64,000 nt of DNA, from the NCBI GenBank assembly GCA_018065185.1, contig JAGHTU010000034.1, positions 25,646 to 89,645 of the forward strand, written 5' to 3'. Positions within the stretch are counted from its first letter, which is position 1; the number at the start of each line of letters is the position of its first letter. The notes beneath the pieces are model-generated. The model did not search any database and was not told the origin of the DNA. It was given only the letters and a program-made list of their open reading frames with translations. Positions 2,812-28,899 of this stretch are shown here, piece after piece. The stretch comes from Candidatus Equicola faecalis (GTDB lineage Bacteria > Bacteroidota > Bacteroidia > Bacteroidales > Bacteroidaceae). The translations under genes were made by a program, and so were the position numbers.

Positions 2812-3858
2812 TCAAATAGTATGTTCTTGATTATTTGCAATGAACTTCTTGTTCAACTTAGCAACAATCTTTTCATTCAATGGGGAACAAATATAGATTC
2901 TGAGTTTATCAACAAAAATGCAACACATATAAAATACCACAACTGTCGCGACCAATAGCAAGCCGGCAGGTATCGGAGCAAAAGTGTCGTAAATATAATG
3001 ACATGCTCCGAACAAAACTTTTCCGCCAACTGTCTGGGAATGTATTAGATAAACCGAAAGTACTGATGCGCTTATCCAGTTTATCCACTTGTTTTGAATC
3101 TTCCAAGTCATTACCCAGTGGAAAAAAGTGACTGAAGCCAGTAACACCATCGGTGAATTGTATCTGAAAGAAAACAGAATAGCCATTGGAGTAAACCCAA
3201 CTTTTATGGCATGCATCATTGTGCATAAAACACAGATTGCCAACCATTTATACCCCCCCCCAGTTTGTAGAGCTTTAATTGGCTTTTCTGATATGAAGCA
3301 GCCAATGTAATAGAGGACTATAAAATGAATAACATGATATCCGCTCACGCTGACCTCGGCACTTTGATGCATATATCCAAGATAAACGTCAAGAATGAGC
3401 ATCATCATCAACATGGGTGTCTTCTTGGAGTCTGGCAGATTATCATATCCTGCATTAAGCAATGGCGCGATAAGGTATAATCCAAAATAGGCAACGATAA
3501 ACCACATTCCACTCTCACTTAATGCAAAGACGCTTCTCTTCAACGCATCCATCCAAGTTACCTCGTGTAACACAAGACCTATTGCAGAGAACGTTATTGC
3601 ATAGAATGCACATTGCGTAAAGAGATTAACAAAGCCTTTCCAACTCTGCTCGATACGGAAATATCCACTTATCAGGACGAAGCAGTTAACCGCAATTATT
3701 GACATGCTCATAAGAAAAACCTGAAAGTGATGAGCAGGATAATTCACGGCTATATTCAAATCCGCATACAAAGATTGTAGGACATGATTGCATAATACCC
3801 CAAGCATACAAAGTATACGAAGGAGTTCAAAATTGGATTGTCTTTCTTTTGATGCCAT
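2812..3858 (-). CDS. acyltransferase family 3 membrane protein; contains G9 tract
   Basis: MASKERQSNFELLRILCMLGVLCNHV (acyltransferase_3 N-terminus), multiple TM segments; C9 (plus strand) at 3253-3261. Confidence 0.85.
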   Translation of the reverse strand: MASKERQSNFELLRILCMLGVLCNHVLQSLYADLNIAVNYPAHHFQVFLMSMSIIAVNCFVLISGYFRIEQSWKGFVNLFTQCAFYAITFSAIGLVLHEVTWMDALKRSVFALSESGMWFIVAYFGLYLIAPLLNAGYDNLPDSKKTPMLMMMLILDVYLGYMHQSAEVSVSGYHVIHFIVLYYIGCFISEKPIKALQTGGGYKWLAICVLCTMMHAIKVGFTPMAILFSFRYNSPMVLLASVTFFHWVMTWKIQNKWINWISASVLSVYLIHSQTVGGKVLFGACHYIYDTFAPIPAGLLLVATVVVFYMCCIFVDKLRIYICSPLNEKIVAKLNKKFIANNQEHTI

Positions 3859-11016: not shown

Positions 11017-11781
11017 TTAATTCTGTTTTTCTCTAGGGCACAACAATCCTTTGTTGATGAGCCCATTAACTTGTTGGTTATATAATCTCTCCGCTCTATC
11101 ATATACGAACTGATGAACGCGAGCTCTTGGTGACATCACTTCTTCGGTCCAATTGGCATCGTGAGTGAGAACCTGAAGGTGCTGCACACTTTCATTGTTC
11201 AGTACATCTTCCAACCTGTCGAAACGCCAATAGCCAAGACTGTCGCCACAGTAGTTAAAATTGTTCTTGAAGTGCGAAGAATAGACGTTAATCAGTCCCC
11301 CATACATTGGTTCAAGACAACTCTGAGTGAATGGTGTGGTGTTATGGAAGGAAAATGTATCAATCTTTACCTTAAGAACGCGCTCGAAATACTCCTTGTC
11401 AAGCTGGATATACTCATTCAGTTGACTCTCGTTTTCGATACCATAGTAATGGCTGTCGAAATGAAGTCCGACAAAATGTCCCAAGGATTTTATCTTGTTG
11501 AACACTTCTGTATAGTGAGGGTCAAAGATATTATAATATGGGCAATGAATCTGGAAAAAGTATGTGGCTTTAGCGCCTAACGAACTTTCTATTTCTGCCA
11601 TCTTCAAAGCGATATCCGGCTCAAACTCCACATCGTGCCGCCAAAGGATGTCTTTTCTTTCCTGTACGAACTCATCCGTATATGAAATGAACTCAAAGCC
11701 CTTCTCCAAAGCCAAAGCAACCAAACGCCTGTAATTGTCAAGCGTAAAGTCGTCAAAACGGTATTTCTCGCGATTGGTCAT
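11017..11781 (-). CDS. polysaccharide deacetylase-like protein
   Basis: ILWRHDVEFEPDIALKMAEIE...ATYFFQIHCPYYN...GHFVGLHFDSHYY. Confidence 0.7.
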   Translation of the reverse strand: MTNREKYRFDDFTLDNYRRLVALALEKGFEFISYTDEFVQERKDILWRHDVEFEPDIALKMAEIESSLGAKATYFFQIHCPYYNIFDPHYTEVFNKIKSLGHFVGLHFDSHYYGIENESQLNEYIQLDKEYFERVLKVKIDTFSFHNTTPFTQSCLEPMYGGLINVYSSHFKNNFNYCGDSLGYWRFDRLEDVLNNESVQHLQVLTHDANWTEEVMSPRARVHQFVYDRAERLYNQQVNGLINKGLLCPREKQN

Positions 11782-12407
11782 TATTTGATTAATATTTTTG
11801 CAGGAGAACCAATATATACTCCTGATTCGTTTAGTGTTTTAGTTACAGTTGCTCCACACCCTATTGTACAATTTGCAGGTATTGATACTCCATCTCTGAA
11901 TGTACTATTTACGCCCAAAAAGCAGCATTCCCCAATAGAAACTTTTCCAGCCAAGACTGCACAAGGTGCAATATATGTGTGGTCTTCAATAACATCATAA
12001 TTTCCGACATGTGCCCCAGCCAAAATAATAATATTATTACCTATCTGAGATTCATAGTTAACGATAGCTTTTACACCCACAAAAACACCTTCTCCCATTT
12101 TTACCGTTGAGTTAATAAAGGCTGTAGGATGAATGATGTTGGCAAATGGAACCTTTCCTTTGAAATTTTCGTATATCTTCTTTCTGATATTAAAGTGAGC
12201 ATATCCAATTCCAATAAAGAAACAATCGACTTCTCCTGATTTGTATAGTTCTTCAATGTCTTCGTCATTCCCAATTATTGGGTATTTTGAAGAAGCACCA
12301 TCTTTATTATCTATTAATCCAACAATTTTATAATCGTTTGTCTGTTCAACCTGATCTATTATCTGGTCTGCAAGTTCTCCAGAACCAATTATTGCTAATT
12401 TTTTCAT
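11781..12407 (-). CDS. NeuD/PglD-family sugar O/N-acetyltransferase
   Basis: MKKLAIIGSGELADQIIDQVE plus left-handed beta-helix hexapeptide repeats. Confidence 0.85.
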   Translation of the reverse strand: MKKLAIIGSGELADQIIDQVEQTNDYKIVGLIDNKDGASSKYPIIGNDEDIEELYKSGEVDCFFIGIGYAHFNIRKKIYENFKGKVPFANIIHPTAFINSTVKMGEGVFVGVKAIVNYESQIGNNIIILAGAHVGNYDVIEDHTYIAPCAVLAGKVSIGECCFLGVNSTFRDGVSIPANCTIGCGATVTKTLNESGVYIGSPAKILIK

Positions 12408-12443: not shown

Positions 12444-13068
12444 TTACTTAAACTGCTTTGCCGGATTTCCTATATAAGTATGATTTGATTCTTCTATATC
12501 TTTAACCACATTGGCTGCACAACCCACAGTGGTGTAATCTGCTATTGCTATATGGTCTTTGATTGTACTATTTAATCCTATAAAACTACATTCTCCTATT
12601 CTTGAATAACCCGCTATTGCAGCACGGCCAGCTATGTACGAATGATTCCCAACAATTGTATTATGCTCAACAAGGACACTCGAATTGATTACTACGTTAT
12701 TGCATATTTCTGCTTCTTTATTGATAACCACATTCGGTCCGATAAATGAACCTTCTCCAATCTTAGCAGAAGGGCTGACAACTGCTGCCGGATGAATAAT
12801 AGTGACAAATGGAATCTGCTTCTGCGAGAACTTATCATACAACTTCTTGCGTAAGTCAAACCTTGCATAGCCGATTCCTATGAACAAATAGTCGAACGCG
12901 CCTTGTTCATATAGCGTAACAACTTCATTATCAGAGCAAAATACCCCCCCCCCGAACAGGATTATTATCCACAAAACCAACGAGTTTCATTGAGGAGTCA
13001 GCCTTGATAAAATCAGCCAACTGTGATGCCCATTCTCCTGAGCCTAATATTGCAATACGTTTTGTCAT
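12444..13068 (-). pseudogene. NeuD/PglD-family acetyltransferase, frameshifted at a G10 tract (candidate phase-OFF allele)
   Basis: ATG at 13068 gives MTKRIAILGSGEWASQLADFIKADSSMKLVGFVDNNPVRGGGILL*; with one G fewer it continues ...NPVRGGVFCSDNEVVTLYEQGAFDYLFIGIGYARFD... to 12444. Confidence 0.85.
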
Positions 13069-15443: not shown

Positions 15444-16970
15444 CTATCTATGATGTGGCTTTGTTATTTTACAAAACCCAATTATTTTATTTACTGGTTC
15501 TATTATTAAATTCCGCTCATACGAATCTAAGGCAATTTTCCACATAATGGTGAAATAAATAACCGTAACCAAACAACCTTTAGTAACGAAACCCACCCAC
15601 CCGTCGAGTGGAATATAATGGCAAGAATAACATAAAGCAAACGAAATAATAAAAGGCACTCCCATCTTAATAAATACATTCTGAAAAAACAATCGTGTAT
15701 TTAATCTTAATTTGTGTTTAAAAATCCAATCCAATCCAATGTTCCGAATATTATATGCTATAAAAATTGAACAGCACAAACCCAAACATCCCCATTTTTC
15801 TGCAAAGAAATAGCCTAATACAATATTACAAACACCCATAAACAAATACACTAATGCTTGGTGTTTAATTTTATTTTGTACCGCTATATAACTACATCCT
15901 ATTTCTTGAGGCACGTATATCATTGATGGTAGTATTATCAAAACTGAAGCTATATAAACAGGTGTATAGCCGTCTCCTAACCACACTTCAATAAACTCTC
16001 TACCAATACTAACAAAACCTACTATAACCAAGCCAACTATAAAGAACAACAATCTACCTACTTTTATCATTAATGTTAAAACATCTTCGTTGTTTTTAGC
16101 TGCAATTTTGGAAACACGTGGCAAAAACAAACCATTTAATGCCCCTGCAAAACTATAAACATAACCCTCAATTGTACTAGCAATCCCAAAAAGTGCAATC
16201 TCTACAGAGCCGGAAACCATCCCTAATACAGTTGGCGATAGCGTAAAAATCATTCTTTCCGAAAAAGATTTTACCGTCACCCATCCTGAGAATCCGAGGA
16301 TTTCTTTAAATTCAGTTCCATTATAATAGCCAAAATTTACTTTAGTATTTGTATCTCTTTTTATAAAGAGCAACTTTAATACGATCGTAGCTAACCCAGA
16401 GAAAACATGTACTAATACAAGAGCATACAAGCCATAACCGAGAAATAAACATACGCTCATAGCAACAACCATAAATAACTTGTTAGCTAAATCGCATAAT
16501 TTCAACTGTATGAACTTTTCATTTGCAGTAAGTACTCCATTGACAGGGATAAAGGGGAAAGAAATTACACTAAAAAAAGAAACGGCAATGTAAATAATTT
16601 TAAATTTCTCTATCTCTTCAGGTGTCAACTCTTGATATATCTGTGGGATAAAGAAATAAAATGATACTAGAATAATAAAAAGGAAAATATCAATATAAAA
16701 ATATAATTTATATACTAAGCCTAAACAGTTGTTTGCTTTCTGTAAATTTCCTTCTGCTAAGTATTTAGCTATGAATCTTGTAACCGCTTGACCTATGCCA
16801 AAATCAAAAACGAATAAAGAAATCACAGAAAGAGCTAAAGTATACAAGCCATAATCTTCCCTCCCTATTGAATTAATCATCCAAGGAGTATAGATTAATC
16901 CAACTAAAATGTTAATAGCAAGCCCTAAATACGATAAAGCAGCTCCAAATTTCAATTGATTAACTCGCAT
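15444..16970 (-). CDS. polysaccharide flippase (Wzx-like)
   Basis: 508 aa, RVNQLKFGAALSYLGLAINILVGLIYTPWMINSIGREDYGLYTL. Confidence 0.88.
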   Translation of the reverse strand: MRVNQLKFGAALSYLGLAINILVGLIYTPWMINSIGREDYGLYTLALSVISLFVFDFGIGQAVTRFIAKYLAEGNLQKANNCLGLVYKLYFYIDIFLFIILVSFYFFIPQIYQELTPEEIEKFKIIYIAVSFFSVISFPFIPVNGVLTANEKFIQLKLCDLANKLFMVVAMSVCLFLGYGLYALVLVHVFSGLATIVLKLLFIKRDTNTKVNFGYYNGTEFKEILGFSGWVTVKSFSERMIFTLSPTVLGMVSGSVEIALFGIASTIEGYVYSFAGALNGLFLPRVSKIAAKNNEDVLTLMIKVGRLLFFIVGLVIVGFVSIGREFIEVWLGDGYTPVYIASVLIILPSMIYVPQEIGCSYIAVQNKIKHQALVYLFMGVCNIVLGYFFAEKWGCLGLCCSIFIAYNIRNIGLDWIFKHKLRLNTRLFFQNVFIKMGVPFIISFALCYSCHYIPLDGWVGFVTKGCLVTVIYFTIMWKIALDSYERNLIIEPVNKIIGFCKITKPHHR

Positions 16971-17519: not shown

Positions 17520-18653
17520 TTAAGCTTTCCGAAATTGTAATAACCTACGCTCAGTTGCGCAACGCCACAAATATTCCATCGGCCCATTATTAAAACGAGA
17601 GAGCCACCATCTGCAGAAAACATTCTGAAGTATAAAGAACAGAATAGCGCATAACATTATCGCCACAAAGGAATATCCATTGAAAGCCAGACCAAAGTAA
17701 TATAAAAATATAGCGGAAAACCAATTCTGCATAGAATAGTTTGTTAAACCACATTTTCCATAGCTTTCAAACCATGAAAGAACTTTATGTGCAATACGCA
17801 AATGGTTATAACTCCATATCACTACAATAGTATAGAAAGTACCTCCTGCAAGATTGAATGCACAACCGACAACGTCATGTAAAGCACTAACATCTTTATA
17901 GAAAGGAAGATAAGTGGCCGCAATCAACAAATAAATAATAGCGGAATATAGCATATGTTTTTTCTGAAATAGCGAGTCCCATTTTTCAATTAACCCAATC
18001 CTTCCCAACCAATATCCTATACAAAAATTTGCTAATGTAATCAAATGGGCAGGTGACAATAAATCTTTAACATAAATCCATAAAGAAGGAAGATATAATT
18101 CATGACATTCCCTAAATGAAATATTTTCGCCATGTCTTTTTAGTTCATTAGCATTATGAAACAATGACAAATCCAGATATTGTAGAACAAAAAATACAAT
18201 ATACAAGAACATCGCAAAGATAATTATCCATTTTTTTGGAAAATTACGCACAAAAGTCAATAGCATTCCGCAAAAACCATAAATCATCAAAATGTCACCA
18301 CCATAAAAGTACTTGTTAATAGCTCCTATCAGCATTAGAATAAAACATCTCCAGGCAAATTTCAAACTCGAATATGATGGCTTTCGCAATATTAAATAGA
18401 AACTAATGCCAAAAAGGACATTGAAAATTAAAGCACATCTTCCATTTACCAATGCAACTATTATTTTTTCCAAATATCGGCTAATTACTGAGGCATTTAT
18501 ACTATCCACTAAACCTATTCCGAATCCATTACCTGTGTGAATCAGTAAAATTCCAAATAATGCAAATGCACGAAGAGCATCTATGGAATGAATCCTTTGA
18601 GGTTTACCCCCCCCCATCGTGCTGTTTATCAACATCTTATTATCAATTTCCAT
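17520..18653 (-). CDS. DUF418/acyltransferase-like membrane protein; contains G9 tract near N-terminus
   Basis: IDALRAFALFGILLIHTGN; multiple TM; C9 (plus strand) at 18607-18615. Confidence 0.75.
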   Translation of the reverse strand: MEIDNKMLINSTMGGGKPQRIHSIDALRAFALFGILLIHTGNGFGIGLVDSINASVISRYLEKIIVALVNGRCALIFNVLFGISFYLILRKPSYSSLKFAWRCFILMLIGAINKYFYGGDILMIYGFCGMLLTFVRNFPKKWIIIFAMFLYIVFFVLQYLDLSLFHNANELKRHGENISFRECHELYLPSLWIYVKDLLSPAHLITLANFCIGYWLGRIGLIEKWDSLFQKKHMLYSAIIYLLIAATYLPFYKDVSALHDVVGCAFNLAGGTFYTIVVIWSYNHLRIAHKVLSWFESYGKCGLTNYSMQNWFSAIFLYYFGLAFNGYSFVAIMLCAILFFILQNVFCRWWLSRFNNGPMEYLWRCATERRLLQFRKA

Positions 18654-22418: not shown

Positions 22419-25400
22419 TTATACATTAGGGTTGCGATGATAAGTCACCTTAATATTATCGCCCTTATCTATTTTATTGCTAATATATTTCAAATGAGAG
22501 CGCAAATAATCGACAAGCTCGTTGTTCTGTGGATTATTATCTAAGATAGTCTGAGTGTGATATGTATTAAGTTCCGTATAAGGTTCAAGCAACGTCTCAA
22601 CCATATTCACAGTTCGTTCTTCATTAAATGTTGTTGAACGATGCACCTTGTTAATCAATTCAATCCTAATGAACCATGTTCCTTCTCCATTATAAATATT
22701 GAGAGCCTTAGTTATTAGATTGTAATCAGCATCCGAACAATCATTCTGATGATAGAACTCACAAATCATACGAGCATATTCATTTAATCCATCATTATGA
22801 CCTTCCGCCTCTATCAGGCAAGCGTAATCTCTGAGGAAGATATTTTTCTTTTCATCAGGAAGATCCGATGAAAGAATTTCTATTCCAAGTCGGTTTGAGT
22901 TGGTAAAATTCACTTCCCCTTCTGCTGTATCCATTTCGTCAAAATACTTGATGATATATTTGGCTAAGAGGTGAGGGGAATACTTCGACATAAACGCATT
23001 GTAATCTGGACTATAATCCAACAAGTCATTATCTAAGAAAATTTCCAACCTTTCTTCGCTAATACCATCTATCTCTTCCGGGTCAAAGATAAATGTGCAA
23101 CAACCTATCAACTTCTCAAAGGCATAATTATCAAGGGTAGTATTATCTCCGAATAGAAGAACTTGTAGATTTTCGTCACCATCAATGAACTTATATTGTG
23201 ACAATTTATCCGCATTACTGTTGATAAACGGAGCCACATTTGATAATTCATCAAATATTGAAAAGTATTGACGAACGTTCTCCCAGGAAGGTTTTACAAA
23301 GCCGCCCTTGAATACTAATTCATATCTGGATGCCGGTACGTCTTTGAGAAGAGATATCTTATTCTTTTGTTCAGACAAATATAGTCCAACTTGTTCATCA
23401 GTCAACTCTTCATTTTTTACCACATATATCAACGCCTGTTCTGTCTCCTGTTTGCTGGTTGGAGGCAATTGAGAGTACAGCTCCTTTATGCGCCTCAGCA
23501 AGTAAACTTTTACCCGTTCATTGCCTGAGAGAATGCAGCTTATGCTTTCCGTTTTGAACTTTTCACCATAGATAACGAGAAGATTATCAAGATTTATAGT
23601 AAAGTGCTTGTTGTTGATTACATAATCAAACAAGTCTTTTGTTTCCGTCTCAGGGGCTATCAATTTATCAAAGCACAGGCCGGAAAATTCTATGAAACCT
23701 TTGATTTTGCTGCCTTCGAAATTTGATATATGGTTGGCAATAAAAGCATACTTGGAATTCAAAAATTGTTTTTCTTCTAAAGAGATAGAAATGGACTGGG
23801 GTGCTTCGCGGAAATATATAGAGAGGATACTCGCCTGCAATGAATCATCTTCGCAAGCCATTATCACACTTACACATCCATTCCAACCATTGAATAGCTC
23901 AGTAAAGAATTTATTATTCCTGTTTTTATACAAATCATACCCCACTACGAAATCAAGAAAACTCCGGGCAGTATTTGCGAACATACTACACTGTGTATCC
24001 ATATCATTTCGTGAGAAAATATAATTAGCGAGATCATAGTTCAATATACTACGATCAGAAAAATTGTCAGTTGTGATGCCCGAGATAAAAGATGAAATAT
24101 TCTTTAATGGATAGTTATAATCCAAATGTTGTCCCTGAATCACTGAATGCAAGAAATTAGACTCGTCTTCATTAAAAGTTCCATGATAAGTAAAAGAAAT
24201 ATATGATGCATAATCTTCGGCAATATATTCATTTCGAATCATGCTATGGATAGTTTCCGCAAGTTGGCATAACTTATTCTCGTCTTCAGGATGTTTTGAA
24301 GCATTCTTACAAATATCATAAACCATCGGAATAGTAACATCTCCATTTCCAATCTTTCGCATAAGATGGCTGAAGGAATTATTACATATAGCATTGATTT
24401 GGCTTTCCAATGAACGCTTCTCGATTGTATTTACTTCCAACTCAGTCTCCCTATTATACATTTCTTCGTCAAAGTTACCATCTGGATCAATTTCCACAAT
24501 AATATCTTTAAACAGCATGTTATAGCTGGTAGGATTAACCTCATCTGATTCTTGCACAAAACACTGGTCTATTCGATTATTTTTGAATGAATCAAATAAT
24601 TGTTTTGATTTTGAGACTTCCTCAAGGGAGTATTGCTTTCCGCCTATATTTAATTTGACGATAGAATGTTTGTTGTTCAAACTATCCAAAACTGACTTTC
24701 GTAATTTTATAATCGATTCACGATTTTCATCAACAGTCACATTGACTTTTGCAAGATTTGCTTCCAAGTCCTGAGTAAGTCGTTGTGAAAATACCTTCTT
24801 ATTATTTAGAACAGCATAAAGGCAGCCTTCTTTATCATGAAGGTACGAATAATCTCCCGGAAATAGATTTTTGTAAATTGTTATGGCGAGTAACTTCCTC
24901 TTAGACATATTTGAAAAATGGATAGTCTTTTCATAGAGTTGGTACTCATTTATGATGTTTATCAAATCTCTCATTCTGGAGACATAAAGTCCCATCTGTT
25001 TTAAATCCGAGTTACTTATTCCTTTGAACAAATCCTTATGATGGTCAATCATATATTCGCCCGAATTGAAACAATCAATTACCGGGATGACAGGTATGAT
25101 GTAATCAAAGAACTTGGTACGCACCTCGTTCTGGAAGACATCGTCCTTTATGGCATATACAAAGCGTATGATGCGATCCTTTTTTTTGAAATACTCTGAT
25201 TCGTTGAGCAGAATATTCATTTCGCGCAACTTAAGGAACAACTCCTGAGGATGTGAAATACGGTCTAAATCTTCAAAAACAACGATTTCGTATTCGCCAG
25301 CCTTGAAAAAGTATAGAATATCGTCAAGCCATTTGCTGAACAGAGGTTCTTTGTCCTCAAAATTAATTTCACAGTCTTTTGCTTTGATACTTTTTACCCT

Positions 25401-26210
25401 GAAACTGTACAACTTTGGGATAAATATATAGAGAATGCGAAAGACTATAAAAGCCATTATGATTGCTGATGAAATGTCCGCAATAGTGTTGACTATTCCA
25501 CTCTTATCTTTGAGTATATCAAAATATGCATCATAAAATGACTTAACCTGAAGGATCTTCGGCTCAAACAGTACGACAAAGCATACGAAAAACAGGATTA
25601 TGTCAAATGCTATTCTCGTGATTGTGCATTTGTCAAGAACATTTATATGTCTATGACGTGATTGAGCAGTTTTACGGTAATCAGCTTTCTGTATTATTTG
25701 CTGAAAGATTTTATATTCAATCTCGTTCTCATAAACAGTATGCGATTTCGCTTTTTCTTCATCCTTATTGGAAGTTTCTGTTTGGGATACATTATCTGTT
25801 TTCTGCCCATCTTTTGTGCCATTAGTCTCCTCAGATTCCGCGATGTCTGCTGCCAGCAGAGCTACAGTATTATTTGCTACAGATTGCGACTCAAGAAGAT
25901 TTGACAATGAGATACGAAGTACTTTCTTTGATACGCCCTTCAAGGAAAGACACGTATTGATGACACTGCTTTTCCCCGAGCCAAAAACACCAGTAAGAGC
26001 GATATTCCTACATTCTGGCAAAGACAAAGCATACCTAAGTTCCTCTACACTATGGAAAGATGAATCTTCTTTTGCCAGAATGCGAGGAGCCAGCGAGGAA
26101 CGTGTTTCCTCTGAAACCCGTTTCTCTTCAACCTTGTCTTTACGCAGATGTACACAATACGATATATGTTTCTGCACAAATGTTTTGGCTCTTTCGAAAA
26201 GTGTTAACAT
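22419..26210 (-). CDS. large P-loop NTPase with TM helices (YobI-like)
   Basis: Walker A ALTGVFGSGKSSVIN; Walker B IVVFEDLDRI; two or more TM segments around aa 200-270; 1263 aa. Confidence 0.82.
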   Translation of the reverse strand: MLTLFERAKTFVQKHISYCVHLRKDKVEEKRVSEETRSSLAPRILAKEDSSFHSVEELRYALSLPECRNIALTGVFGSGKSSVINTCLSLKGVSKKVLRISLSNLLESQSVANNTVALLAADIAESEETNGTKDGQKTDNVSQTETSNKDEEKAKSHTVYENEIEYKIFQQIIQKADYRKTAQSRHRHINVLDKCTITRIAFDIILFFVCFVVLFEPKILQVKSFYDAYFDILKDKSGIVNTIADISSAIIMAFIVFRILYIFIPKLYSFRVKSIKAKDCEINFEDKEPLFSKWLDDILYFFKAGEYEIVVFEDLDRISHPQELFLKLREMNILLNESEYFKKKDRIIRFVYAIKDDVFQNEVRTKFFDYIIPVIPVIDCFNSGEYMIDHHKDLFKGISNSDLKQMGLYVSRMRDLINIINEYQLYEKTIHFSNMSKRKLLAITIYKNLFPGDYSYLHDKEGCLYAVLNNKKVFSQRLTQDLEANLAKVNVTVDENRESIIKLRKSVLDSLNNKHSIVKLNIGGKQYSLEEVSKSKQLFDSFKNNRIDQCFVQESDEVNPTSYNMLFKDIIVEIDPDGNFDEEMYNRETELEVNTIEKRSLESQINAICNNSFSHLMRKIGNGDVTIPMVYDICKNASKHPEDENKLCQLAETIHSMIRNEYIAEDYASYISFTYHGTFNEDESNFLHSVIQGQHLDYNYPLKNISSFISGITTDNFSDRSILNYDLANYIFSRNDMDTQCSMFANTARSFLDFVVGYDLYKNRNNKFFTELFNGWNGCVSVIMACEDDSLQASILSIYFREAPQSISISLEEKQFLNSKYAFIANHISNFEGSKIKGFIEFSGLCFDKLIAPETETKDLFDYVINNKHFTINLDNLLVIYGEKFKTESISCILSGNERVKVYLLRRIKELYSQLPPTSKQETEQALIYVVKNEELTDEQVGLYLSEQKNKISLLKDVPASRYELVFKGGFVKPSWENVRQYFSIFDELSNVAPFINSNADKLSQYKFIDGDENLQVLLFGDNTTLDNYAFEKLIGCCTFIFDPEEIDGISEERLEIFLDNDLLDYSPDYNAFMSKYSPHLLAKYIIKYFDEMDTAEGEVNFTNSNRLGIEILSSDLPDEKKNIFLRDYACLIEAEGHNDGLNEYARMICEFYHQNDCSDADYNLITKALNIYNGEGTWFIRIELINKVHRSTTFNEERTVNMVETLLEPYTELNTYHTQTILDNNPQNNELVDYLRSHLKYISNKIDKGDNIKVTYHRNPNV

Positions 26211-26369
26211 AGTAATCGTTAACTTGTGAGGTCTATACTATTTGCTTAAGTTTCTTATCAGCATTATAAAGGTTTCTGCTGTCTTACAGTTCTTACAAAT
26301 TTCAAATTTACTACTTCTTCTCAATTCTGTAGCCTCTCTGACCGAAGAGAAGAGTGGCGGTCTCTCTAT

Positions 26370-26414
26370 AGCCCCCGAAGAGCACTCTATCGCGCCAGCG
26401 ATTGGGTGCGTGGG
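26370..26414. repeat. 45-bp direct repeat, copy 2 (upstream of the NTPase start)
   Basis: agcccccgaagagcactctatcgcgccagcgattgggtgcgtggg; one mismatch to 22012-22056. Confidence 0.95.
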
Positions 26415-26504
26415 GCGTTTACTTCGCCAAATTCCCAACCCCCTTCAACTCGTTCTGTATATATTCGAGAGAAGCAATCTTCTCCTTGGTCTCTTCCAAA
26501 TCCT

Positions 26505-26573
26505 CCTTCGAGTACCTCAGGAACCACCCTTCGAGTACCTCAGGAACCACCCTTCGAGTACCTCAGGGACCAC
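26505..26573. repeat. three tandem 23-bp repeats ccttcgagtacctcagg(a/g)accac
   Basis: Read directly at 26505-26527, 26528-26550, 26551-26573. Confidence 0.95.
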
Positions 26574-26677
26574 CTCCGCGTATTATCCGAATTGTCCTTC
26601 GACAAGCGGTTGCCGAGCTCGTCGAGGTACAGGAACCACTCTGTCAGCACATTGCATTTCTTATCTCATTCCTTATC

Positions 26678-26866
26678 TTATTTCCTATACGGCAGTTCTC
26701 CATTTGACCAAAGTATTTTCTTAGCTCTACTCCAACCATGGATTTGACGTTCGCGAGCATATGCTTCTGCGTATGAGGAATGTTCTTCTGCGTACACAAG
26801 TCGAAAAGGTAAATGGGCTTTGGTGAATATATTCAAGGCTTGCAATCTTCTCTTTGGTCTCTTCAA
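26678..26866 (-). pseudogene. C-terminal half of a GIY-YIG endonuclease
   Basis: FTKAHLPFRLVYAEEHSSYAEAYARERQIHGWSRAKKILWSNGE; GIY...YIG half missing. Confidence 0.7.
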
Positions 26867-27189
26867 GATTCAAACGTCTTGTACGTTGCCGTAGCGGGTG
26901 CAGCATATCTTGGTGCCGTGGAATTGCCCATTCTCATCGTAAGTGCCTGATACTCGTGACGCATATCATCCTGCTTCTTCTCGTCGCGTGAGAAGATGCG
27001 GATTTCGCCTATATCCGTGCGGAGGAAGCGGTTGAGTACCGCATTGCCGAATGATCCCGTCCCTCCGGTAATCATCAATGTCTTTCCTGCGAATATGCTC
27101 ATATCGTACGCTCGTAGAAGTAAGTTTCTCTCCGATTCTCTCCTTTTTCTCTCCTTTATTGAAATTTCAGTATGCAGTATATCAGGCAG

Positions 27190-28899
27190 TTACTCATTTT
27201 TCTTCTTCAGTACCCATGCTCTTTTCTCTCCTATTTCTATCCTTCCGCTCATGCGGAGAGAAGTCAGAAGCTTTCCTATTTTCCTAACTTTCTGATCAAA
27301 AGTCAGAGCATCGCTCAACTTGTCCATCAACAGTTTATCAATCTCCGGGCGTTTGGCCGCACCAAATTCAGTGATATAGTTGATAATCAGGCCACGGAAG
27401 TAATCATCATCGAAACTCTTGTTCTTTATATAGTCCGTTTTGAGGCCAACATGTCTGGTAGGCGCTACTACTTTTGCGGAAAGATACAAACTGTTCTTCC
27501 TTCCCTCAACAAAGTTCATTTTCCGCAGATAAGCCACCTGCTCCTGCGAGAGTTTCTTGCCTTTCTGGACCTTATCCAACAACATGATATCAGGGAGTTT
27601 CAGCATAGGGTTGTTTACAAGGATACGGGCAAATTCCTCGTCCATCACCTTCGCATTAATCTCTACGCGCACCATTTCATCCTTCAGGTCATATTCCGGC
27701 ATAGGGAAGAAACGTTTCTTCTGCTGAAGGAACAATTTCCTTATACCGCCTCCTTCGGTTTCAATCATGTGGATATTCTTCATTGCCTCACACAGAAATG
27801 GATTCCTATAGTGCGACTCCGGGCTGTCCGCCATCACCACATCCTCAACAGAGTCGGGAAGAAACTGCCCGTGATTCCTGAACACCAGCTTTTCTCTTAC
27901 GTGCTCCATCACTTCAATCCTGGCATTTTTCATATAGTCCTGATGCGCAATGCAGTTGCAGATTGGCTCTCGAAGCGTGAAGACATCGTACATCTTCATT
28001 GTGTCAGGGAAAATGGAGCCTTCTATCGTATATTCATACCTTGTATTGAAAATCAGGTTCGAGAGTTTTGTCACAGACAGTACCATCGGGATGCCCAGAA
28101 TCTCATGGTTTATGTTCTCATCTCCACCATCATTCTGCACCCACCGTATCTGACACACGTGCGGGAGAAGCCAATGTTCCGCCTCGCTTCGTCCCACAAG
28201 AATCAGAGCCGTATTGGTAATCTTTCCGCCGATTGTCAGTTTTGCCTTATTAAGGAAGGTGATGTCATCCCAACTGTCACACTCTTCCTGCTTGTCGGGA
28301 TGCAGTTCCTTATACTGATTTCTTGCCTCTGCAATAGCCTTCGGGTCCAAGTCGTCAATCGTAGCTCCCTCGACCACTTGTGCCGTCCAATCAATGCTGC
28401 TGTTGTAAATCTGTCTCAAGTAATCAGGAAATTCTTTGAGTTTGGTAAGGTTGCTGCCGATACGCACGTACATCTCGTTTTTGAATGCCACCGGCACTCC
28501 GTGCGTTGAAGGTATCTCGAAAATCACAATACGTTTGCCCGGGGAGAACTCGAATTCTTCAATCACAAAGTTGATTATCGGATCCAGATTCTTCCGCAGC
28601 CACAACTCATAATCCTGTCCACCGATCTTGACATCACGCATCACCAGATTCGTTCCCACGATATCCCACGTCCCGTTTTGCACGCCAAGGACAAGGTAGC
28701 CATGGTCTTTATATTTCAGGCAGGCGCTATTGCTTAATCCCGATAAATAGCAGCCCACACGTTCATACGTGATGCTGGAATGAGACTCACTGATATTGGT
28801 TTTGAACTCCAACCAATCCGCCTCTCCTTCTTTCCCCCTGCCCTTTGCAAAAGCAATCAGCTCAAGCAAAAGCTCTATCTGTTTTTCCTTAGTTCTCAT
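27190..28899 (-). CDS. AlbA_2 (Schlafen-type) ATP-binding protein
   Basis: EADWLEFKTNISESHSSITYERVGCYLSGLSNSACLKYKDHGYLVLGVQNG; typical domain order with RecG-C-like tail. Confidence 0.8.
   Translation of the reverse strand: MRTKEKQIELLLELIAFAKGRGKEGEADWLEFKTNISESHSSITYERVGCYLSGLSNSACLKYKDHGYLVLGVQNGTWDIVGTNLVMRDVKIGGQDYELWLRKNLDPIINFVIEEFEFSPGKRIVIFEIPSTHGVPVAFKNEMYVRIGSNLTKLKEFPDYLRQIYNSSIDWTAQVVEGATIDDLDPKAIAEARNQYKELHPDKQEECDSWDDITFLNKAKLTIGGKITNTALILVGRSEAEHWLLPHVCQIRWVQNDGGDENINHEILGIPMVLSVTKLSNLIFNTRYEYTIEGSIFPDTMKMYDVFTLREPICNCIAHQDYMKNARIEVMEHVREKLVFRNHGQFLPDSVEDVVMADSPESHYRNPFLCEAMKNIHMIETEGGGIRKLFLQQKKRFFPMPEYDLKDEMVRVEINAKVMDEEFARILVNNPMLKLPDIMLLDKVQKGKKLSQEQVAYLRKMNFVEGRKNSLYLSAKVVAPTRHVGLKTDYIKNKSFDDDYFRGLIINYITEFGAAKRPEIDKLLMDKLSDALTFDQKVRKIGKLLTSLRMSGRIEIGEKRAWVLKKKNE

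Follow-up and report, generated by a model that had tools for sequence, protein, structure and literature searches.

A poly-G tract near the start of a DUF418 acyltransferase-like gene as a candidate slippage switch in a Bacteroidales polysaccharide locus

A run of nine Gs at codon 13 of a gene encoding a DUF418 protein is, in our reading, probably a contingency switch, through which slipped-strand phase variation would turn one acylation of a polysaccharide on and off. The gene belongs to a polysaccharide biosynthesis locus that carries two further long G tracts, within the 64-kb stretch of DNA analyzed here (hereafter the window), and the features of the window on which this reading draws are the following:

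548-21871, minus strand: polysaccharide biosynthesis locus with the three tracts, including glycosyltransferases, a Wzx-like flippase, nucleotide-sugar genes, an N-acetyl sugar amidotransferase (WbuX) and an aminotransferase
2812-3858, minus strand: Acyl_transf_3 (PF01757) gene, 348 aa, identified by family match
3253-3261, minus strand: G9 tract within the Acyl_transf_3 gene, at about its codon 200, with the frame computed to be ON
11781-12407, minus strand: intact, tract-free NeuD/PglD-type paralogue (TIGR03570), just downstream of the split gene
12444-13058, minus strand: NeuD/PglD-type hexapeptide acetyltransferase gene, frame split by a G10 tract, the downstream part (12444-12980) open from a TTG
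12944-12953, minus strand: G10 tract in this second NeuD/PglD-type gene, full-length protein OFF as assembled by frame computation
15444-16970, minus strand: Wzx-like flippase of the polysaccharide locus
17520-18653, minus strand: DUF418 (PF04235) gene of the transmembrane acyltransferase (TmAT) superfamily, 377 aa, with D25-x-x-R28-x10-H39, identified by Pfam match and motif (superfamily after PMC12423673)
18607-18615, minus strand (C9 on the plus strand): G9 tract at codons 13-15 of this DUF418 gene, with the frame ON at n = 9

On the plus strand, the tract appears as C9 at 18607-18615 in the context TTTACCCCCCCCCATCG; read on the minus strand it is ATG GGG GGG GGT AAA, in frame and inside the peptide MEIDNKMLINSTMGGGKPQRI, with the ATG of codon 13 contributing its G to the nine-G run. 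Reading the open reading frame 17520-18653 thus bears out the position, frame (ON) and peptide given in the initial annotation. Runs of G or C of this size are exceptional in the window, which holds 138 runs of length four and 16 of length five, none of length six to eight, and then two of nine and one of ten. Markov models predict 0.10-0.15 (order 1), 0.03-0.04 (order 2) or 0.03-0.05 (order 3) runs of at least nine per 64 kb, with a maximum of two in 150 simulations for each order. The three long runs are a separate class of their own, and the DUF418 gene shares with simple-sequence-repeat phase-variable genes a homopolymer longer than expected by chance.

The 377-aa product matches the DUF418/YeiB family (PF04235) with 87.3 bits, against a curated cut-off of 23.6. 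The TmAT superfamily unites DUF418/YeiB proteins with AT3 and HGSNAT, and the motif given for AT3 proteins, DxxRx10H (PMC12423673), is found here just past the tract, as D25-A-L-R28 followed by ten residues and H39. Both D25 and R28 are invariant in 22 aligned proteins, as expected for the DxxR of the first transmembrane helix in TmAT proteins, and a profile-profile comparison aligns the motif segment with Acyl_transf_3 over 31 columns (E 4e-10). Since a Pfam scan gave no PF01757 match to the protein, we consider it, judging by its sequence, an AT3 relative and not an AT3 member; a single-sequence structure model (pLDDT 43) was too poor to inform on the ten-helix TmAT fold. We infer acyl transfer by DUF418 proteins from their superfamily membership, which is consistent with the previous description of the gene product as a membrane protein of acyl-transfer type, DUF418 and Acyl_transf_3 being in the same superfamily. 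Its family and its position in a polysaccharide locus both point to a predicted role in modifying surface structures.

Predicted products of the DUF418 gene were then computed for tract lengths of 6 to 13, and the full protein is obtained only at 6, 9 and 12. At 7, 10 and 13 translation stops directly past the glycines, and at 8 and 11 it stops at most 10 codons further on, such that termination at all five of these lengths falls within 25 codons of every candidate start. The outcome is identical for starts at codon 1, codon 7 and the codon-13 ATG, and there is no start in the other frames from the last upstream stop to the tract. At the frame level, the N-terminal tract is then the clean ON/OFF switch that had been proposed, whichever upstream ATG serves, and across the computed lengths the product is abolished by length changes, as in simple-sequence-repeat phase-variable genes. 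We also considered a translation start downstream of the tract, which had been raised as a case in which tract length would be irrelevant, and rejected it: the DUF418 gene has no in-frame start between the tract and the D-x-x-R-x10-H motif, and the earliest one past the tract, at codon 49, lies beyond H39, where the motif already ends, which excludes this case in practice. Most relatives begin 7-14 residues ahead of the first arginine of the motif, which makes the tract part of a short N-terminal tail.

All three long runs of the window, the two companion tracts being present as initially annotated, lie inside sugar acyltransferase-type genes of this one polysaccharide locus, and within the window the glycosyltransferase, Wzx and Wzy-like genes lack such G tracts, also as proposed. 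The probability that three out of three tracts would fall in the five acyltransferase-type genes of the locus (of ~22 genes) is ~0.006, for a pattern seen before the calculation. The whole genome (2.09 Mb) has seven tracts of at least nine Gs, three of which are gathered within 15.4 kb (p 0.005, post hoc). In the gene with the G10 tract, the frame before the tract (MTKRIAILGSGEW...) differs from the frame after it, and the full-length NeuD-type protein is therefore OFF. This product, previously taken for a membrane protein, is instead predicted to be a soluble NeuD/PglD-type left-handed beta-helix acetyltransferase. Three independent switches had been suggested to give eight acylation states; the three tracts are there, but eight is an arithmetical upper limit only, because one of the three genes encodes a soluble NeuD-type enzyme, is currently OFF and has a tract-free paralogue that is intact.

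Just upstream of the polysaccharide locus (22419-26210, minus strand) lies a gene for a 1263-aa YobI-like P-loop NTPase (PF20693, 298 bits). Elsewhere in the genome, intergenic G10 and G11 tracts (L002, 1500-1509 on contig C15, and L010, 1499-1509 on contig C43) are located ~50-140 bases ahead of frames for secreted surface-type proteins and could be promoter-spacing switches, and a G9 tract (L003, 1501-1509 on contig C41) encodes an in-frame Gly-Gly-Gly within a GH28-type glycoside hydrolase-like gene.

To place these tracts in a broader context, we surveyed the genus and the order. At least one G9 tract is present in 135 of 149 genomes of the genus and in 105 of 128 genomes across the order, and some of these tracts sit in housekeeping genes, so that a tract alone is no proof of a switch. 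The host genes of 88 tracts from 22 genus genomes (the window's own genome left out) were scanned for protein families. Acyl_transf_3 was the commonest family among the listed tracts (7 of 88: L109, L148, L151, L152, two in L159, and L164), followed by TonB-dependent receptors (4 of 88). With ~163 Acyl_transf_3 matches in the 22 sampled genomes, ~0.2 tracts would be expected vs. the seven found (P ~4e-9, a rough value, the tracts being among the matches listed per genome and one genome supplying three). Two of these Acyl_transf_3 genes are ON (L109 and L152) and five are OFF (L148, L151, both of L159, and L164); because the frame is open on both sides of the tract in each of the five, these OFF copies have the look of switched genes and not of dead ones. 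In another species, the L152 gene has a homologue (L219) that is OFF, with open frames on either side of a G9 of its own at a different codon, and no tract was seen in three other homologues of the same gene. Two further Acyl_transf_3 genes, chosen by match score alone (L185 and L199), carry a G8 in frame, and no tract was found in DUF418 relatives elsewhere in the genus. This recurrence of tract-bearing acyltransferases across the genus, in both ON and OFF states, lends indirect support to the idea of switching by the three tracts of the window.

The same survey brought up several other tracts and counts. Another glycan-type cluster (169637-179061 on contig C2 of genome G140; L144 and L145) has three long tracts within 10 kb, in genes for a Core-2/I-branching enzyme and a DUF1919 protein (both out of frame as assembled) and an FrhB-like protein. 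G9 tracts close to the 5' end of genes for TonB-dependent receptors (L101, in the signal peptide region, and L170) are possible switches of outer-membrane receptors, and four genomes (G101, G060, G099 and G109) have 55-156 overlapping G9 matches vs. the usual handful per genome.

Only one close homologue of the DUF418 gene was found in a scan of the genome collection (L071, 86% identity), in a Bacteroidaceae MAG from horse faeces. Its DNA is near-identical up to the tract site, which there reads ATGGAGGGGTAAA, two bases shorter and interrupted, and the gene is OFF in frame, with a later in-frame stop as a sign of decay. Homopolymer sequencing error does not explain this difference, given the interruption of the site. 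This homologue shows that the length at the tract site has changed and that the gene can be lost, rather than that switching is reversible. DNA searches of 398 genus genomes gave no usable second allele for any of the three tract genes, and a scan of viral contigs for further relatives returned one distant match only.

Other origins can be conceived for the tract in the DUF418 gene. It might be a G run that arose by chance or by mutation alone and codes for Gly-Gly-Gly in an N-terminal tail that tolerates it, without a selected role in switching, which would fit the lack of conservation of this tail among relatives, the absence of the tract from these relatives, and the G9 runs of housekeeping genes. 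However, such a run would have to be reconciled with a window in which models predict 0.03-0.15 long runs and three of length 9-10 are found, with none of length 6-8 and all three in acyltransferase-type genes, as well as with the strong enrichment of tracts in Acyl_transf_3 genes across the genus and with homologous genes that have their tracts at different codons; we thus regard a chance origin as unlikely. A sequencing or assembly artefact affecting the tract length or the frame is very improbable. The assembly is admittedly fragmented (79 contigs, 89% complete), and homopolymers are error-prone, but a run of G8-G10 would remain after a one-base error, the two-base difference in L071 is at an interrupted, non-homopolymer site, and acyltransferase genes with tracts are also present in other genus assemblies, one of them a three-contig genome (L109 in G010).

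A different question is what an OFF tract would act upon. With ~1.1 kb of message left untranslated in OFF variants, the genes that follow (NUDIX, Wzx-like and beyond) could be expressed at a lower level, in which case the tract would tune the locus and not one enzyme. The gene spacing is compatible with such polarity: the neighboring genes of the same strand are separated from the DUF418 gene by 37 bases on its upstream side and 18 on its downstream side, and this strand shows neither a terminator nor a strong promoter pattern from the DUF418 gene to the downstream genes. In the genus, however, tracts favor acyltransferase genes over operon-leading genes, and a dominant polar effect appears quite improbable; polarity might still act in addition to the switching of acylation that we prefer.

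Under this preferred explanation, slipped-strand mispairing at replication would alter the length of the G9 tract at a high rate, and a change by any number of bases not divisible by three would end translation within 25 codons, ahead of the D-x-x-R-x10-H motif. Cells would then alternate reversibly between making and not making the DUF418 enzyme which, when made, would take an acyl group from acyl-CoA and pass it through the inner membrane to a sugar of the locus glycan. Together with the G9 Acyl_transf_3 and G10 NeuD-type genes, this would yield a population heterogeneous in its acyl decorations, with no switching of the backbone genes, and such a mixture would probably hedge against phage, antibody or other surface-directed attack. 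Against this reading count the single assembled length of the tract, the decay of L071, the lack of tracts in DUF418 relatives elsewhere in the genus and the occurrence of G9 tracts across the order and in housekeeping genes. Beyond this locus, and with confidence only a little better than even, we propose that poly-G/poly-C tracts have arisen repeatedly in the genus, at different codons, and serve its members as slippage switches chiefly on surface-glycan acyltransferases. Such switches would form a second layer of phase variation beside promoter inversion, with a constant backbone and combinatorial acyl decorations.

Slippage switching is itself a known mechanism, and a literature search of partial coverage found no description of it for this lineage and gene family, nor of phase variation through long homopolymers in Bacteroidetes or Prevotella, which is weak evidence of novelty given that coverage. 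One model is oafA of Haemophilus influenzae, where, according to a review (PMC11868660), lipooligosaccharide acetylation is phase-variable, with effects on opsonophagocytic killing and antibody production. There, as we propose here, an acetylation of a surface glycan is reversibly switched ON and OFF, but oafA is one gene acting on a gammaproteobacterial lipooligosaccharide, whereas the DUF418 gene with our poly-G tract belongs to a Bacteroidales locus that has two more. Poly-G/poly-C phase-variable genes are also known from Campylobacter jejuni and Neisseria (PMC4965091, PMC8437040, PMC3786947), which likewise have in-frame poly-G in several surface-structure genes and combinatorial states. 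These bacteria have many tracts per genome and measured switching, however, compared to seven G tracts of at least nine in 2.09 Mb and predicted switching here, in a different phylum. Within the Bacteroidales, one extra base in a C run puts the PSI/9 acetyltransferase of Bacteroides fragilis 638R out of frame, and the authors of that work suggested that slippage generates variation in this way (PMC3090145). This too is a polysaccharide acetyltransferase with its frame altered in a homopolymer run, but the run is of 4-5 Cs, and no long tract was reported in that study.

Phase variation in gut Bacteroidales has been described as DNA inversion, with capsule loci of the order controlled by invertible promoters (PMC12632263). 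In our window, the region upstream of the gene block (26340-27193) has weak inverted repeats, with arms of 17 and 14 nt, 486 and 227 nt apart. Decoration genes switched by slippage would escape inversion-based surveys and be hidden by consensus assemblies, and such switches, if real, could determine how phages adsorb, antibodies bind and the immune system senses the cells. Both systems would vary surface polysaccharides in the same bacterial order, but invertible promoters act on whole loci by site-specific inversion, whereas the switch proposed here would act inside single decoration genes by a change in homopolymer length.
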